Assembly (NCBI GenBank): GCA_015709315.1
Contig: JACCQI010000024.1
Location: 1-49,893 of the forward strand
Source of the DNA: Desulfovibrionaceae bacterium
GTDB lineage: Bacteria > Desulfobacterota > Desulfovibrionia > Desulfovibrionales > Desulfovibrionaceae
Direction of reading: 5' to 3'
DNA: 49,893 nucleotides
Position numbers and translations under genes: made by a program. Position 1 is the stretch's first letter; each line of letters begins with the position of its first letter. A model generated the notes under the pieces. That model was not told the DNA's origin and did no database searches. It worked only from the letters and a program-made list of their open reading frames with translations. Positions 38,352 to 46,503 of this stretch are shown here, piece by piece.

Positions 38352-38900
38352 CTACTTGAAGGACCGTGCGAACAGCTCCTCAAGCGCCTTCTTGCCGTTG
38401 TCCTCGAGGAAACGGGTGCCGGTGCCGGTGAAGTGGCTGTCGGTGACGACCGGGGCCTCTTCGGCAACCCATTCGCCCTTGGCCCAGGTGAACCAGCCGT
38501 CCTTGGACTGGTCGAAGACGTACAGATTCTTGTTGCAGATCTTGGCGAACTCGGCGCCCCAGCCGGTGCCGCCCTTGACCGTGCCGTCCTCAAGGATGGT
38601 GCCGACCACGAAGACCTGATGGCTGGACTCCACCTGCCACATGATGGTCTGCAGGACCTTGCGCATCTTTTCCGCGTTGGTGAACTTGCGGTTGAGCAGC
38701 TTGGACACGTAGGTCAGGCTGACGTCCTTCTGCTTCAACTCCTCGGTGGTCAGGACGCGCACGCCGCGCGTACGCTCGATCCTGTGCCCCTCGAAGGTAT
38801 AGTTCACCTCGGCCAAGCCATGATACTCGGCCAGCTTGCCGAACTGGTTTTCCGCGCCCTGGGCGCCGCCGCTGAACAGGGTGTAGCTTTCAGTCTGCAT
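38352..38900 (-). CDS. Predicted SLOG-superfamily (YpsA/LOG-like) protein
   Basis: The 182-residue product has no motif for a characterised enzyme, but two stretches suggest a SLOG Rossmann-like domain: an N-terminal strand-loop LFSGGAQGAEN (about 8-18), as in the (S/G)GGAxGAD loop of YpsA/YspA-like proteins, and a C-terminal GGTGWGAEFA followed by NKNLYVFDQ (about 110-131), as in the GGTG phosphate loop and final strand of that family. SLOG proteins bind nucleotides or related ligands, and some act in stress or conflict systems. The ATG at 38900 has AAGGAG just upstream; a frame to 38999 is rejected. It is monocistronic. Fold assignment is by eye. Confidence 0.65.
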   Translation of the reverse strand: MQTESYTLFSGGAQGAENQFGKLAEYHGLAEVNYTFEGHRIERTRGVRVLTTEELKQKDVSLTYVSKLLNRKFTNAEKMRKVLQTIMWQVESSHQVFVVGTILEDGTVKGGTGWGAEFAKICNKNLYVFDQSKDGWFTWAKGEWVAEEAPVVTDSHFTGTGTRFLEDNGKKALEELFARSFK

Positions 38901-39073
38901 ATGCTCTCCTTGTAGGGTGTATGATCGAAATTCGTCTCGGTCCGTGCAACGTAGCAGGTTTCCCTCCGGGCCGCACCGCCGGAATGGAGGCTCATGCATG
39001 ATTATTTATTAAAAATCTACCCTTTTTTTGCAAAATATGCCGTTCACGACCACTGGCCGCCCCTCCCGGCCCA

Positions 39074-39148: not shown

Positions 39149-40264
39149 GTGTCCCGAAAAATCGCTCTGCCCCTGTTCGCGGGGGCGTTCATAACGCTGC
39201 TGGCATTGCTGTTTACCCTGTTTTCCGCACCCAAGGGGGTTGCCATGACCGACGACAAGAAACCTGATGTGTCCAACGCGGAAATCGCCACCCTGGCGGG
39301 CGGCTGCTTCTGGTGCGTGGAATCCGACATGGAAAAACTGCCCGGCGTCATCGACGTGGTGTCCGGCTATGCGGGCGGCGAGGTGGAAAACCCCACGTAC
39401 GAACAGGTCAATGCCGGGGATACCGGCCACCGTGAGGCCGTGCAGGTCTATTTCGACCCGGACGCGGTGAGCTACGCCCAGGTGCTGGATTATTTCTGGC
39501 GCTACTTCGACCCCACCGACGCAGGCGGTTCATTCGGCGACCGGGGCTTCCAGTACTCCTCCGCCATCTTCTACCATTCCGAAGCCCAACGCGAGGTCGC
39601 CGAGGCGTCCAAAAAGACGCTGGACGAATCGGGCCGGTTCAATGCGCCCGTGGTCACGCCCGTCCTGGCGTTCACGAACTTCTATCCGGCCGAGGGCTAC
39701 CACCAGAACTTCTGCCGGCTCAATCCCACGCGCTACAAAACCTACCGCACATTCTCGGGCCGCGACCGGTTCGTGAAGGAGCATTGGGGCGACAAGGCCG
39801 GAGCAACCTCCGCCGGGAACAAGGCCGACTTCGTCAAGCCCGACGACCGGACGCTCAGGGAGACCCTCACCCCGCTTCAGTACGAGGTCACCCAGCAGTC
39901 GGGCACCGAGGCCCCGTTCCAAAACAAATACTGGGACAACAAGCGCGAAGGCATCTACGTGGACGTGGTCAGCGGCGAGCCGCTCTTCTCGAGCCGGGAC
40001 AAATTCGACTCCGGCACGGGCTGGCCGAGCTTCACCCGCCCGCTCGACCCCGTCAACGTGATCGACATGGAGGACGATAGCCTCTTCATGCGGCGCACCG
40101 AAGTCCGCAGCAAGTCCGGTGACTCCCACCTGGGCCATGTGTTCGACGACGGCCCCGACCCCACCGGGCAGCGATACTGCATCAATTCCGCCGCGTTGCG
40201 ATTCATCCCCAAGGAAGACCTTAAAAAAGAAGGCTACGAGAAATATATTGAATTTTTTCAATAG
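39149..40264 (+). CDS. msrAB: Exported bifunctional methionine sulfoxide reductase MsrAB
   Basis: The 371-residue protein begins with a signal peptide or membrane anchor (about 5-26), then an MsrA domain (about 46-205) with catalytic GCFWC (Cys53, Cys56) and GYAGG, and an MsrB domain (about 230-365) with [22 protein letters not shown] and the catalytic [11 protein letters not shown]. Together they reduce both methionine sulfoxide epimers in the periplasm. The two CxxC zinc sites of many MsrB proteins are absent. Start is GTG at 39149 with CGGAGG about 8 bases upstream. In an anaerobe this is an oxygen or hypochlorite defence enzyme, fitting the Fur-like operator upstream. Confidence 0.95.
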
Positions 40265-41540: not shown

Positions 41541-41569
41541 TTGATCGGGTGGCATTCGAGTGGTACATA
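41541..41569 (+). promoter_or_regulatory. Candidate promoter of the BRCT gene
   Basis: TTGATC (41541-41546), a 17-base spacer and TACATA (41564-41569). The predicted transcription start is only about 6 bases before the ATG at 41582, so the mRNA would be nearly leaderless. Confidence 0.5.
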
Positions 41570-41581
41570 GTAAAACAAATA

Positions 41582-42250
41582 ATGAATAATTTAACTGCAC
41601 AGGAAAAACAAATGCTGCTTGATGACCATGGACAACCACCAAGAATTATTAACGCTCAACGAGTTGCCGACCGAGGAACTGATGAGTTGATTGGCCTATG
41701 CAAAGGAATTCTGGTTGATGAAATAGTTACCCAAGATGAAGCAGAATTTTTGCAACAATGGCTACGGCAAAATGAAGGCGCGAAAACTCAATGGCCAGGA
41801 AACATCCTTCATACTAGAATTTATGAATATCTCAAAGATGGCATATTGGATATCGAAGAAAAAGAAGAATTGTTTGAACTATTAAAATGTTTTGTTGGGG
41901 CAACAGATTCAAACATTGATCACAATGTTAGTACTGCCCTACCATTCGATTCTCCAATGCCACCACTCAATATTGTTGGAGAACTATACTGTTTTACAGG
42001 AAGAATGAATTACGGAACAAGAAACTATTGTCAATCGGTAATCAAATCTTTGGGCGGGCATATTTGCACCACTCCTCGCCAACAAAAATGCGTTGTAGTG
42101 GTAGGTTATCTTGGTAGCCGTGATTGGATTCACTCCACTCACGGAAGAAAAATCGAAAAGGCGGTTGGCTATCGAGAACGAGGTTTACCGGTTGCAATCA
42201 TCTCTGAAGAACACTGGGCCAACGAGTTAGACAAAGCCATGTCCAGTTAA
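41582..42250 (+). CDS. BRCT-domain protein, AT-rich, probably acquired
   Basis: The 222-residue product has a helical N-terminal half with two similar stretches (RGTDELIGLCKGILVDEIVTQDEA broken around ELIGLCKGI, and YEYLKDGILDIEEKEELFEL), TerB-like in feel, and a C-terminal BRCT domain (about 132-215) with YCFTGRMNYGTR, IKSLGG and the final Trp helix SEEHWANEL, closest to the BRCT domain of NAD-dependent DNA ligase. BRCT domains bind DNA ends or partner proteins; the role here is unknown. Base composition is about 40% GC by eye against about 65% around it, which indicates transfer. GTG at 41549 is an alternative start but overlaps the predicted promoter. No Shine-Dalgarno precedes either start. 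Confidence 0.8.
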   Translation: MNNLTAQEKQMLLDDHGQPPRIINAQRVADRGTDELIGLCKGILVDEIVTQDEAEFLQQWLRQNEGAKTQWPGNILHTRIYEYLKDGILDIEEKEELFELLKCFVGATDSNIDHNVSTALPFDSPMPPLNIVGELYCFTGRMNYGTRNYCQSVIKSLGGHICTTPRQQKCVVVVGYLGSRDWIHSTHGRKIEKAVGYRERGLPVAIISEEHWANELDKAMSS

Positions 42251-42314: not shown

Positions 42315-44594
42315 CTAACCGTTGAACACCCTCGGCACGCCGCCGGTGTCCTCTACCCGGAATCCGGCCTCCGCAATCTTGTCGCGCAACTCGTCGGACA
42401 GGGCGAAGTCCTTGGCGTCGCGGGCCTTCTGGCGGTCGGCGACCAGGCCCTGGACCTCGGCCGGGAGATCGGCGAGCGGGACCGGCATCTGGGCCGGGTC
42501 GAGAATGCCCAGGATGGCGTCGATGGCCGTGAGCTCGTCCAGGCAGGCGCGGGCCGCCGGGCCGGTCAGCGCGTTGTTGCTTGCCCAGCCGTTGACCTGC
42601 TTCACGAACTTGAACAGAACCGGCCAGAAATGGTGCAGGGCCAAGGTGTCGTCCATGGCCTTGCGGAAGCCCACCTTGAGGTCGAACACCGCCTGTTCCA
42701 CATCCTGCGGCACGCTGTCGCCGCGCGCGTCCAGGCAGAGCGTCAGGACCACGGCGCATTCCTGAATCTTGCGCCAGTTGCGCGCCCACATGCCCAGGGT
42801 CTCGCCCGAGGCGCACAGGGGCTTGCGGCTGGCGACGGAAAGCAGCCACAACCGGGCCGCGCGGTATCCGCCGAGCTTGTCGGCCACGGTCGAAAGCGTT
42901 TCGCCCTCGCCGTCCACGGCCTGCTGGGCCGCCATCCACGCCTGAAGCTCGCGGCCCGCCGTGCTCCAGATGGCGCGCAGGTTTTCCAGATGCGGGAAGC
43001 GATGCTTGTCCGAGCCGATCATCACGTCGATGCGCGGCAGCACGTCGAGCGCCATGGCCGCGTGCTGCAAGAACCAGCTCGGCCGCACGTTGCCCCATTC
43101 GGTCTCCAGCACCTCGCCCCGCTTCAAGTCGATCAGCGTGGCCCGCTTCAGGAGCGTGAAATCGAGGGGGTTGTCCTTGACGTAGGCGCCCAGGTCCACG
43201 GTGCGGCCGCCGGACACCTTGTCCATGTCCACGGTGCCGATCTCGCCGTACCGCTTGTCGCGAAACACGTCGAAATACACGCTGCGGAGCTTCTCGTAGG
43301 CCAGCCCCTTGCCCATGAGCCGGGTACACAGGGCCACCGAGGTGTCGTTGCTGACCGAGGACAGGGGAAAATTCACGGAACCGTCCACGCCCAGCAGCCG
43401 GGCGCGGTCCAGGATGGCCTCCCGCCACTTCTCGGCAAATTCTTCGCGCGGCGTGCCGGTCTCGCGGGCCGCGCTCAGGGTGCGGTCGTCCATGTCGGTC
43501 AGGCCCACGGCCGCGTCCACGGCCGTGCCGCGCGCGGCCATGTACCGGGCGAACACGTCCAGCAGCGCCACGCGCCGCCAGGCGTCCAGGCCATCCGGGT
43601 TGTCCAGGCTCGGCCCCATGGTGTACGCGCCCAGCCCGGCCCCGGCGTCGAGATGCTTCTCCGTGTTCGAGGCCATGTCGAAGATGGTCGCGCCGCCGCC
43701 GGACTGCTGCCGGTAGAGATGGGTGGAAAGATAGCGCTCGCCCGAGTCCGGGAAGATGCAGACGATCAGCCCCTTGTCCAGCCGCTCGGCCAGTTGCAGG
43801 GCACCGCCCAGGGCCGCGCCCGAACTCATGCCCGCGAAGATGCCCTCCTCACGCGCCAGCTTGCGGCAGTTCTCGAAGGCGGTTTCGTCCTCCACGTGCA
43901 GGATCTCGTCGAGCTGCGTTTTGTCGTAGATGCCCGGCGGGTAGGATTCGAGCATGTTCTTGAGGCCCTGAATCTTGTGGCCCGCATAGGGTTCCACGGC
44001 GGCCACGTAGACGTTGCCCTCCTGGTGCAGCCGCTTGGCGATGCCCATGGCCGTGCCCGAGGTGCCGAGCGTCATCACGCAATGGGTGACCGCGCCGCCC
44101 GTCTGCTCCCAGATTTCCCGGCCCGTGCCGTTGTAGTGGGCGTCGATGGAGGCCGGGTTGTTGTACTGGTCCATAAGCACGTACTTGTCCGGCTCCTCGC
44201 GGGCGTAGCGATACGCCTGCTCGATGGCCCCGTCCGTGGCCAGCCTGCCCGGCGTCAGCTCCAGCTCCGCGCCGTAGGCGGCCATGATCATCTTGCGCTC
44301 CTCGGAGGCCGTTTCCGGCATGATCAGCTTGATGCGGTAGCCCTTGATGGCGGCCACCATGGCCAGGCCCACGCCGGTATTGCCCGAGGTGGCCTCGATG
44401 ATGATCTTGTCCCTGGTCAGTTCGCCGGACTTTTCGGCGGCCTGGATCATGGCGGCGGCCACGCGGTCCTTGATGGAGCCGCCGGGATTCCGGCACTCGA
44501 TCTTGGCCAGAATCGTGACGCCCGGATTGGGATTGAGGTGGCGGATCTCCACCAACGGCGTATCGCCTATAAGCGCGAGCAAATCCTTGTTCAT
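42315..44594 (-). CDS. Cysteine synthase fused to a degenerate cysteinyl-tRNA synthetase-like domain
   Basis: Residues about 1-295 are a PLP-dependent O-acetylserine sulfhydrylase/CBS-type enzyme: PLP lysine Lys42 in NPGGSIKDR, TSGNTGVGLA, the phosphate loop GTSGTAMG and the C-terminal FPDSGERYLST. Residues about 320-759 align with class Ia cysteinyl-tRNA synthetase through its catalytic, anticodon-binding and C-terminal regions, ending in DRQKARDAKDFALSDELRD, typical of CysRS. The active-site signatures are gone: CGPTVYD is MGPSLDN, HIGH is missing, KMSKS is replaced by GEGETLS, and FPHHENE is FPHLENL. It therefore probably synthesises cysteine but cannot charge tRNA. There is no internal stop or frameshift. 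A genuine cysS must exist elsewhere. The region upstream has an inverted repeat. Confidence 0.9.
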   Translation of the reverse strand: MNKDLLALIGDTPLVEIRHLNPNPGVTILAKIECRNPGGSIKDRVAAAMIQAAEKSGELTRDKIIIEATSGNTGVGLAMVAAIKGYRIKLIMPETASEERKMIMAAYGAELELTPGRLATDGAIEQAYRYAREEPDKYVLMDQYNNPASIDAHYNGTGREIWEQTGGAVTHCVMTLGTSGTAMGIAKRLHQEGNVYVAAVEPYAGHKIQGLKNMLESYPPGIYDKTQLDEILHVEDETAFENCRKLAREEGIFAGMSSGAALGGALQLAERLDKGLIVCIFPDSGERYLSTHLYRQQSGGGATIFDMASNTEKHLDAGAGLGAYTMGPSLDNPDGLDAWRRVALLDVFARYMAARGTAVDAAVGLTDMDDRTLSAARETGTPREEFAEKWREAILDRARLLGVDGSVNFPLSSVSNDTSVALCTRLMGKGLAYEKLRSVYFDVFRDKRYGEIGTVDMDKVSGGRTVDLGAYVKDNPLDFTLLKRATLIDLKRGEVLETEWGNVRPSWFLQHAAMALDVLPRIDVMIGSDKHRFPHLENLRAIWSTAGRELQAWMAAQQAVDGEGETLSTVADKLGGYRAARLWLLSVASRKPLCASGETLGMWARNWRKIQECAVVLTLCLDARGDSVPQDVEQAVFDLKVGFRKAMDDTLALHHFWPVLFKFVKQVNGWASNNALTGPAARACLDELTAIDAILGILDPAQMPVPLADLPAEVQGLVADRQKARDAKDFALSDELRDKIAEAGFRVEDTGGVPRVFNG

Positions 44595-44624
44595 CCTACT
44601 GCCCTGAAATCATGTGGTTTGGTA

Positions 44625-44678
44625 ATGCCAGTCGATGGACGCACCGTAAGGGAATATCGAGGCGGGCGCAACTGGCAT
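44625..44678. promoter_or_regulatory. Inverted repeat in the divergent cysK-fusion/DUF115 upstream region
   Basis: ATGCCAGT (44625-44632) and ACTGGCAT (44671-44678) are exact 8-base inverted copies 38 bases apart, within the 139 bases between two divergent genes. They may form a leader stem or a pair of operator half-sites. No convincing -35/-10 pair was assigned. Confidence 0.35.
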
Positions 44679-44733
44679 CAAACGTGCAAATCACGCCCAG
44701 GACCGTCCATTTTTTGAGCCAGGCGAGGAAAGC

Positions 44734-46503
44734 ATGAACCCATACCCCTTTCTGAAAGACAACATCGAGTACCTTCAGCGCACCGGAAACCCCATCTTCG
44801 GGTGGCTTTCCGGCCAGGATTTCCACATCGACAGGCTGACCAACAACCTTTTCGTCAACGAGCACGGGCTGCTCGACTGGCGCATGAACTCCGGCAAGGG
44901 GATGCTGGAATCCCTCCGGCCCGAGGGGCTGTACGCGGGCTGGCTGCCCAAGGAAAAGGCCGACACCTCGGCCACCTTCGTGGTCGGCGCGAACCTGGGC
45001 TACGGGCTCAACCACCTGCTCAAGAACACGCCCGACACCCACAAGATCATGCTCGTGGAGCCGCGCACCGAGATGCTGCTCGCCTGCCTGGGGCAGACCG
45101 ACTACCGCCCGTTCTTCGAGAACAGGAAATTTCACCTCATGGTGCCGGACGAACGGTTTGTGGCCGAGGTCATCAAAAACCTCGACCTCCAGTTCATCTA
45201 CGGCCAGATCCACCTCAAGGGCGACCTGCCCAGCCGCCAGCTCGGGCCGGAATACGCCCGCTGGACCACGCTGATAAAGAATCGGCTGGAAAACTTCTCG
45301 CTGGAGCTGTCCACCCTGCGCTTCCGCCAGGACGTCATGGTCCGCAACGAGATCGACAACTTCAAGCGGGCCATGCGCGACGGCAGCCTGAAATCCATCG
45401 CGGGCAAGGCGGCCGGCGTGGGCGCGGTCATCCTCGGCGCGGGCCCCAGCCTGGAGGAGATGGCCCCCCGGATCAAGGAACGGCCCGGCCACGCGCTCTA
45501 CACCTGCGCGTTGCAGACCATGCCCGTGCTCCAGCGGCTCGGCATCAAGCCCCACCTGTGCGCGGCCATCGACTACGACGGCTCCATGCTCAAGATTTTC
45601 GAACGCCTGGACCCGGACTTCGCGGCCGACGTCCCGCTCATCTACTCCACCAAGGTGGACCCCATGCTGCTCAAGCGGTACCCCGGCCCCACCCTGCCGC
45701 TGTGGACCGTGGGCGGCATGGGCACCTACGTGCTGAACGAACGCGACCTGGTGCTCGACGCGGGCGGCAACGTGTCCGTGACCCTGTCGCGGTTGTTGCG
45801 GACCTGCGGCGTGAGCCACATCCTCATGGTCGGCCAGGACTACGCCTGGATCAGGGGCAAATCCCACGCGGCGGGCCACCACGGGACCCAGACCAAGATC
45901 GTCCGCCGCTCCTTCCACCAGGACACCAAGAACATGGACGGCGAAACCATTCTGACCACGGTTCAGTACATGACCGCCAAGCGCGAGCTGGAATACGACC
46001 TCAAGCAGGCGAATTTCCCCATCTACAACGTGTACGGCGGCGGCGCGCCCATCGAGGGCACCGAGGCCATCACACTGGACGACGCCTACTCGCGGGGCAT
46101 CCTGGCTTCCGCACCCGGCAGCGTGGACCGATTCATGACCGCGCTCATGGCCTGCCGGAAGGCCGCGCCGCCCATCCGCCTGGAACCCCGCTCGCCCATG
46201 TGGACCACGTCCATGCGGAACGCGGAAAAACACCTGGGCAAGCTGTTCAAGCACATTAAGGACAACCAGGACGACATCCACAAGGCCCTGGAGCGTATCG
46301 AAATGTTCATCAAGCAGGACCCGCTCTACATGCCCTACCTGTTCAACGAAACCCTGGATCTGGCCGGGCTGACGCGGGCCAAGGCGCGGCACGAGCCGTC
46401 CGACCTCCGGGAATTCAAGGCCATCGCCAAACGCATCCTGAAAAAGGTCCGGGAAATGGACCGCAAGATCACCTTCATCGACGAAAAGACGGCCGCCGCC
46501 TAG
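44734..46503 (+). CDS. MptE-like DUF115 protein (Maf/flagellin glycosylation-like)
   Basis: A 589-residue soluble protein. The core (about 195-400) is the DUF115 / 6-hydroxymethylpterin pyrophosphokinase MptE-like domain, recognisable by AVILGAGPSLEEMAPRIKE, LCAAIDYDGSMLKIFERL, GGNVSVTLSRLL and SHILMVGQDYAW. In many bacteria such proteins (motility accessory factors) add nonulosonic acids to flagellin; others have unknown targets. The N-terminal part contains a second Rossmann-like stretch (ATFVVGANLGYGLNHLL, MLVEPRTEML), also seen in Maf proteins. The C terminus is helical. GAGGAAAG precedes the ATG. No flagellin or sugar biosynthesis genes are in the window, so the acceptor is unknown. Confidence 0.82.
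   Translation: MNPYPFLKDNIEYLQRTGNPIFGWLSGQDFHIDRLTNNLFVNEHGLLDWRMNSGKGMLESLRPEGLYAGWLPKEKADTSATFVVGANLGYGLNHLLKNTPDTHKIMLVEPRTEMLLACLGQTDYRPFFENRKFHLMVPDERFVAEVIKNLDLQFIYGQIHLKGDLPSRQLGPEYARWTTLIKNRLENFSLELSTLRFRQDVMVRNEIDNFKRAMRDGSLKSIAGKAAGVGAVILGAGPSLEEMAPRIKERPGHALYTCALQTMPVLQRLGIKPHLCAAIDYDGSMLKIFERLDPDFAADVPLIYSTKVDPMLLKRYPGPTLPLWTVGGMGTYVLNERDLVLDAGGNVSVTLSRLLRTCGVSHILMVGQDYAWIRGKSHAAGHHGTQTKIVRRSFHQDTKNMDGETILTTVQYMTAKRELEYDLKQANFPIYNVYGGGAPIEGTEAITLDDAYSRGILASAPGSVDRFMTALMACRKAAPPIRLEPRSPMWTTSMRNAEKHLGKLFKHIKDNQDDIHKALERIEMFIKQDPLYMPYLFNETLDLAGLTRAKARHEPSDLREFKAIAKRILKKVREMDRKITFIDEKTAAA

Follow-up and report, generated by a model that had tools for sequence, protein, structure and literature searches.

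Known paralogs of aminoacyl-tRNA synthetases with other roles include HisZ, a separate class II subunit without an anticodon-binding domain, and MshC, which is about 410 amino acids long and likewise has no anticodon domain. According to the accessible parts of the sources, HisZ is a paralog of histidyl-tRNA synthetase (HisRS) without adenylation activity that acts as the HisRS-like regulatory subunit of the ATP phosphoribosyltransferase HisG (PMC9437257, PMC9734150) and mediates feedback on this first enzyme of histidine synthesis (PMC9437257); MshC and CysRS*, both enzymes, are paralogs of cysteinyl-tRNA synthetase (CysRS), and CysRS* is without an anticodon domain (PMC9437257). Here we describe a gene from a 49,893-nucleotide stretch of a Desulfovibrionaceae genome (contig JACCQI010000024.1 of assembly GCA_015709315.1; hereafter the window) that joins a cysteine synthase to a degenerate CysRS. 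The fusion gene (42315..44594, minus strand) is one open frame of 759 amino acids plus stop, in which a CysK/CysM-type synthase precedes a full CysRS fold, as a preliminary description of this DNA had stated. As in the case of HisZ, a synthetase paralog that lacks the catalytic motifs is joined to the enzyme making its own amino acid, whose biosynthesis it would control; however, the fusion has a class I fold on the same chain as the enzyme and keeps the anticodon domain. It shares with MshC and CysRS* a derivation from CysRS for another job, but differs from them in keeping the anticodon domain and in having lost the catalytic motifs. We tentatively propose (with a probability of about 0.45) that the fusion is a pyridoxal phosphate (PLP)-dependent cysteine synthase controlled by tRNA-Cys through its built-in pseudo-CysRS, and that it may thus work like HisZ without being one.

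The synthase half (residues 1-296, 43707..44594, minus strand, as are all features of the gene given below) is an intact PLP enzyme bearing the usual motifs of the CysK/CysM family (TIGR01136; E. coli CysM, PDB 2bhs), and the window protein scores 349.2 bits against TIGR01136, above the curated cut-off of 344.15 bits. Lys42 (44469..44471), presumably the PLP lysine, and the TSGNTG substrate loop (residues 69-74, 44373..44390) are invariant in the 40 aligned fusions from the order Desulfovibrionales, as are Gly177, Thr178, Gly180, Met183, and Gly184 of the PLP-phosphate loop GTSGTAMG (residues 177-184, 44043..44066). This half differs from CysK in the short loop GLKNM (residues 210-214, 43953..43967), which replaces a longer CysK loop and reads LKNM in 77 and LKNL in 4 of 81 compared fusions. 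The compared set consists of the window, 40 loci from the order, and 40 from the wider phylum, chosen from ranked matches rather than at random; loci L055 and L056 belong to the same genome (G033), and L075 is a near twin of the window. In the full structural model, the loop 210-217 lies close to the synthase active site with a predicted local distance difference test score below 50. Matches of the full model in the PDB were filled by cysteine synthases, and the CysRS-like half was therefore modelled separately for this comparison. The synthase half is predicted to combine sulfide with an activated serine to give cysteine.

The CysRS-like half (residues about 303-757, 42324..43688) was confirmed to have the CysRS fold, including the connective peptide and anticodon domain, by the match of its model to PDB 1u0b, and a CysS_C domain is detected over its cut-off (29.8 bits). 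It thus resembles bacterial CysRS (TIGR00435; PDB 1u0b, 1li5, 8qhp) in its whole fold and in the residues that contact G34 of the tRNA, but it sits behind a cysteine synthase and, in the window, is without HIGH, KMSKS, and three of the four zinc ligands. The HIGH position reads GLDA (residues 335-338, 43581..43592), and a deletion after residue 565 (42900..42902) removes the KMSKS loop, which bears out the earlier claim that amino-acid activation motifs were lost while the fold was retained. The claim that the zinc ligands were lost holds for three of them: Cys28 is replaced by Met326 (43617..43619), Cys209 by His511 (43062..43064), and Glu238 by Leu539 (42978..42980), whereas His234 is kept as His535 (42990..42992), as in 80 of the 81 fusions. 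The window protein scores 125.2 bits against TIGR00435, below the curated cut-off of 340 bits, and 41.5 bits against the MshC model TIGR03447, whose cut-off is 485.1 bits. By its score, its HIGH and KMSKS positions, and its zinc set, the fusion protein is not a CysRS.

Across the family, neither the histidine pair of HxGH nor KMSKS is found in any of the 81 fusions, whereas both are present in all 31 standalone CysRS checked in fusion genomes. For this reason, sensing of cysteinyl adenylate, one of the roles initially suggested, appears unlikely. The four zinc ligands Cys28, Cys209, His234, and Glu238 (CCHE) are kept in 27 of the 40 sampled members from outside the order, among which Trp205 reaches 95% and His206 100%. 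Some of the zinc-keeping fusions score as high as 456.8 bits against TIGR00435, above the cut-off, with CCHE, HLGL, and KMSRS. Within the order, the complete set occurs in 0 of 41 members, although His234 persists in 40 of them. The degeneration noted earlier is therefore real but stepwise: the ATP-activation motifs seem to have been lost first, family-wide, and the tree suggests a later loss of the zinc/cysteine site in Desulfovibrionales and a few other lines. Because 27 of the sampled wider-phylum members keep the site, the family probably had it at its origin. Sensing of cysteine, another early suggestion, is unlikely by way of zinc in the clade of the window but possible in the zinc-keeping relatives.

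What is retained in the CysRS-like half is unevenly distributed. We scored 90 columns that are near-invariant in 32 true CysRS: in the 41 members from the order, mean retention is 12% in the KMSKS region, 31% in the N-terminal part with HIGH, 41% in the 201-240 region, 57% over the three columns of the helical part, 60% in the connective peptide, and 96% over the six columns of the anticodon domain, the last compared with 41% for the remaining 84 columns (column permutation p 0.002). The anticodon domain of the window protein has Arg721, Arg725, Phe730, Asp734, Arg737, and Asp749 (42348..42434), corresponding to E. coli positions 423, 427, 432, 436, 439, and 451. In the accessible part of the relevant report, the G34 contacts of E. 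coli CysRS are Arg423, Arg427, Trp432, and Asp436 (PMC12684709). Among the 81 fusions, position 423 is Arg in all, position 427 is Arg in 70, Lys in 8, and Gln in 3, position 432 is always aromatic, and position 436 is always Asp. Since the full C-terminal stretch is not notably conserved (43% identity within the order), the retention of anticodon contacts does not merely reflect a slowly evolving region. Owing to these residues, sensing of tRNA-Cys is the best supported of the roles proposed in the preliminary description.

The second conserved element is the connective-peptide segment (residues 433-512, analyst-set limits, 43059..43298), the most conserved part of the CysRS-like half, whose pairwise identity within the order averages 69%, compared with 36-43% elsewhere in this half, and which resembles the enzyme half (70%) in this respect. 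Seven of eight family-specific residues fall in this segment, including Ser438, Asp442, Thr465, Tyr471, and Arg484, and its confidence in the full model is low at 440-446 and 457-477. The connective segment and the synthase loop 210-217 are possible elements of a coupling surface between the two halves.

The fusion was detected in 98 of 150 Desulfovibrionales genomes (best E <1e-90), which answers the earlier suggestion of a survey of the order. In 93 of them, both halves lie in frames of at least 600 amino acids; the other five matches are partial, in frames shorter than 600 amino acids (G025, G040, G051, G079, and G081; synthase half only in G051 and G081). Several genera in the sample of 150 genomes have no fusion match. 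In a sample of 395 genomes from the phylum, 152 have the fusion (profile A1, best E <1e-80), a slight undercount at this threshold: for instance, G163, with the synthase half in a 704-amino-acid frame at 3.5e-69, falls outside the 152. Both halves are in one frame in 64 of 64 inspected phylum loci, repeats of the same genes included. The best 80 of at least 584 stretches matching in a profile scan of genome contigs carry titles such as Desulfobulbaceae, Desulfocapsa, Desulforhopalus, and similar names, or belong to unplaced metagenome-assembled genomes.

On a phylogenetic tree, one branch separates the 81 fused CysRS halves from 26 standalone CysRS, with a support of 100 in the Shimodaira-Hasegawa-like approximate likelihood ratio test (SH-aLRT), and the 41 order fusions form one clade (SH-aLRT 100) nested within the other fusions. 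The tree was built by a quick method with SH-aLRT as its only support measure, and an exact-motif filter excluded 5 of 31 standalone CysRS, which also carry HxGH and KMSKS. The distances in the two halves are correlated (r 0.72; none of 999 permutations as high). These results show a single origin of the fusion and agree with its inheritance as a unit. Ratios of nonsynonymous to synonymous substitution (dN/dS) are 0.03-0.18 for the enzyme half (9 of 10 close pairs computable) and 0.02-0.28 for the CysRS half (8 of 10), based on a simple Nei-Gojobori count with synonymous saturation in one and two pairs, respectively, and high synonymous change in several further pairs. The selection presumed earlier to maintain the CysRS half is thus borne out: by these ratios, this half is under purifying selection, weaker than that on the enzyme half.

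The source genome has a normal cysS gene separate from the fusion, and a standalone CysRS-type gene exceeds the family cut-off in all but one of the 69 fusion genomes searched, in line with the preliminary description, which had assumed a separate true CysRS. The standalone CysRS is weaker or partial in four of the 68 (G048, G252, G281, and G306), and the one genome with no such match (G018) is 84% complete. Lower-scoring CysRS matches (432-448 bits) were observed at G252:C11:32856-34253 and G306:C1:2514675-2516063, where they are the best standalone ones found, and at G169:C1:594025-595398, where the match is an additional one in a 742-amino-acid frame. A third CysRS-type gene is found at G506:C1:2100534-2101781, G037:C66:7349-8584, and G047:C54:11953-13188, in frames of 425-437 amino acids that match the 466-position model only up to about position 404 and have no anticodon domain. 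CysRS* charging SelC* is described for Desulfobacterales in the accessible part of PMC9437257, and these third genes are possibly CysRS*. We also considered persulfide formation by CysRS as a candidate activity of the fusions and set it aside, as the lysine motifs reputedly required for it are lost there.

The metabolic context of the fusion shows a pattern that the preliminary description had not foreseen, namely that cysE matches are missing where the fusion is the sole cysteine synthase found. At thresholds of E 1e-90 for CysK/CysM and 1e-30 for cysE, the fusion is the only CysK/CysM match and no cysE match exists in 71 of the 152 fusion genomes, whereas a second synthase and cysE are both present in 74; the remaining 7 are mixed (four fusion-only with cysE, three with a second synthase and without cysE). 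Seen from the other side, the fusion occurs in 74 of 131 genomes without a cysE match vs. 78 of 264 with one. In 10 fusion-only genomes, of which nine are single contigs, the best matches to the cysE model are partial and reach 24-48 bits, as expected for other hexapeptide transferases. Cysteine could thus apparently be supplied by the fusion without CysE-made O-acetylserine, unless an unrelated acetyltransferase serves, and the fusion is the likely main cysteine synthase of these 71 genomes; this co-occurrence pattern is the evidence that points to a cysteine-forming activity of the fusion. Cysteine synthesis is usually restrained by cysteine itself through inhibition of CysE, and where CysE is missing this feedback would be missing too. 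The fusion is strongly linked with dissimilatory sulfate reduction: of the 152 fusion genomes, 132 carry the gene dsrA (E <1e-100; 190 positive genomes, the model cut-off giving 188), vs. 58 of 243 others, uncorrected for kinship.

O-phosphoserine is a candidate for the alternative acceptor, by analogy with CysM of Mycobacterium tuberculosis, which, like the fusion, has a basic residue in the loop that reads GLKNM in the window. The available portion of PMC11361707 describes that enzyme as an O-phosphoserine sulfhydrylase that, as proposed for the fusion, needs no O-acetylserine. A Tyr at one named position is said to mark O-phosphoserine use in what is available of PMC12800425; however, the evidence from this marker is mixed, as it is Tyr144 in the window, Tyr in 19 and Phe in 62 of the 81 fusions, and Phe in 15 of 15 CysE-less members sampled. 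In eight other genomes that lack a cysE match, a standalone synthase carries the short loop, as LKHM or LKNM, instead of the CysK loop, and a ninth such genome (G303), with a synthase of another loop type, is an exception to this pattern. The standalone CysM-like synthases L261-L268 have mean identities of 48-51% to the fused half and Tyr at the O-phosphoserine marker; they are candidate unfused relatives of this half and possible O-phosphoserine sulfhydrylases.

The loss of the catalytic motifs, together with fixed tRNA-reading residues, a fixed connective segment, and an intact enzyme, fits a regulator that reads tRNA-Cys and acts on the synthase. In the proposed mechanism, the N-terminal half would make cysteine from activated serine and sulfide, seemingly without CysE, and the C-terminal half, having lost amino-acid activation, would still read the GCA anticodon of tRNA-Cys and, in most sampled relatives from outside the order, also keep the zinc site that holds cysteine. 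The bound tRNA-Cys would probably be uncharged and hence signal cysteine shortage, and this signal would be relayed through the connective segment to the synthase and alter its rate, as HisZ controls HisG; in other words, a worn-out synthetase may inform the cell of its cysteine supply. Such a built-in sensor would replace CysE feedback in the roughly one half of fusion genomes where CysE was not found. The enzyme activity, tRNA binding, direction of the effect, coupling route, and acceptor substrate in this scheme are what we infer for the fusion.

Several observations weigh against this proposal. Binding of tRNA, control, and activity are all predicted from sequence; the anticodon argument concerns six columns, which may also be retained for folding; and the full model has low confidence at both candidate coupling elements (210-217, and 440-446 with 457-477), so that it shows no interface. 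The CysRS half evolves faster than true CysRS (41% vs. 62% identity in the same nine genomes), and the fusion, not detected in 52 of the 150 order genomes, is dispensable. The genome of the window itself has CysK and a cysE-like gene, and hence the fusion is not its only synthase. With the zinc/cysteine pocket gone, cysteine feedback cannot work in the clade of the window as it might in its relatives, and retention of CCHE (8 of 15 CysE-less vs. 19 of 25 CysE-bearing members) does not track the absence of CysE. Finally, neither a fusion nor a cysE match exists in 57 genomes from the phylum sample, and thus other answers to a missing CysE exist, while an acetyltransferase unlike CysE could escape detection.

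Other explanations account for parts of these data. An unlikely one is that the CysRS half began as a zinc-thiolate receptor for cysteine feedback, without a role for tRNA, and decayed in Desulfovibrionales because CysE supplies the feedback there: the zinc set, Trp205, and His206 in the wider phylum, as well as the CysK and cysE-like genes carried by all 11 order genomes checked, agree with this history, which however does not explain why the G34 contacts stayed fixed after the zinc site was lost, or why the site is incomplete in 6 of 25 CysE-bearing and 7 of 15 CysE-less members. Slightly less credible is a structural passenger that stabilizes or oligomerizes the synthase and binds no ligand; the missing catalytic motifs and the fast evolution of most of the CysRS half would suit such a part, but its low dN/dS in the eight computable pairs, the fixed anticodon contacts, and a connective segment conserved like the enzyme would not.

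We regard two further explanations as improbable, and about equally so. In the channelling model, also raised in the preliminary description, the fusion would dock on tRNA-Cys and pass new cysteine to the true CysRS, its rate being uncontrolled; the kept anticodon contacts and the nearly universal standalone CysRS-type gene favor it, whereas two CysRS-type proteins with contacts to the same anticodon base would need to share one tRNA, and no evidence of a complex was obtained. Alternatively, the least decayed members might be active ligases performing MshC-like or CysRS-like cysteinyl transfer, of which the clade of the window would be a derived dead version. The members that exceed the TIGR00435 cut-off speak for this possibility, and the absence of the HxGH pair and KMSKS from all 81 fusions, in contrast to the 31 standalone CysRS, along with the low score of the window protein against the MshC model, speaks against it. 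More doubtful still is a broader version of the tRNA-Cys-dependent control that we prefer, in which tRNA-Cys would be a required partner of a CysE-independent synthase and cysteine would be made on demand beside its tRNA. If true, bacteria would have in such a synthase an equivalent of the archaeal SepRS-SepCysS route, though one built in an unrelated way.

If tRNA-Cys-dependent control is correct, the fusion would place an amino-acid biosynthetic enzyme on one chain with a dead synthetase for the same amino acid that retains its tRNA-reading part. This arrangement, found across a phylum with many sulfate reducers, would open to test the direct reading of tRNA charging by a metabolic enzyme. 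It would also bear on the control of cysteine synthesis in sulfide-filled cells, often without a recognizable CysE, and the CysRS halves, which grade from near-complete to fully decayed, provide a natural record of a synthetase changing its role. A synthetase paralog turned regulator is a known kind of protein, whereas the fusion, its build, and its spread were not found in the literature searched, where we recognized no description of it, most subscription papers being beyond the reach of this search. The accessible parts of PMC2922099 and PMC5424206 do not mention the fusion, and it is not among the CysRS paralogs listed in that of PMC9437257. DVU0663, a cysK gene of Desulfovibrio vulgaris, is upregulated in biofilms according to the available part of PMC3431258; this gene need not be the fusion.

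Clustering of neighboring genes at 80 loci, with shadow frames left in, did not point to any clearly conserved partner gene: the biggest cluster, with 77 loci, consists of opposite-strand frames over the fusion gene, and the other clusters cover at most 19 of the 80 loci. In the window, a 695-amino-acid frame on the plus strand (42630-44717) lies antisense over the fusion gene and is probably a by-product of base composition. No Rfam family matches the window at the gathering threshold, and thus no known riboswitch or T-box family reaches it there. The gene converging on the fusion gene (41549-42247, plus strand) encodes a 233-amino-acid protein that matches phrog_3989 (E 1.2e-60), a phage family of unknown function; the C-terminal part of this protein weakly matches a DNA polymerase III epsilon-like model. 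The divergent gene, about 140 bases from the fusion gene (44734-46500, plus strand), encodes a Maf/MptE-like protein possibly involved in flagellin modification. Farther away are a fused MsrA-MsrB methionine sulfoxide reductase with an N-terminal hydrophobic stretch (39149-40261, plus strand) and a 215-amino-acid protein with no Pfam match and a weak DprA-like match to phrog_768 (38355-38999, minus strand; E 3.3e-8).

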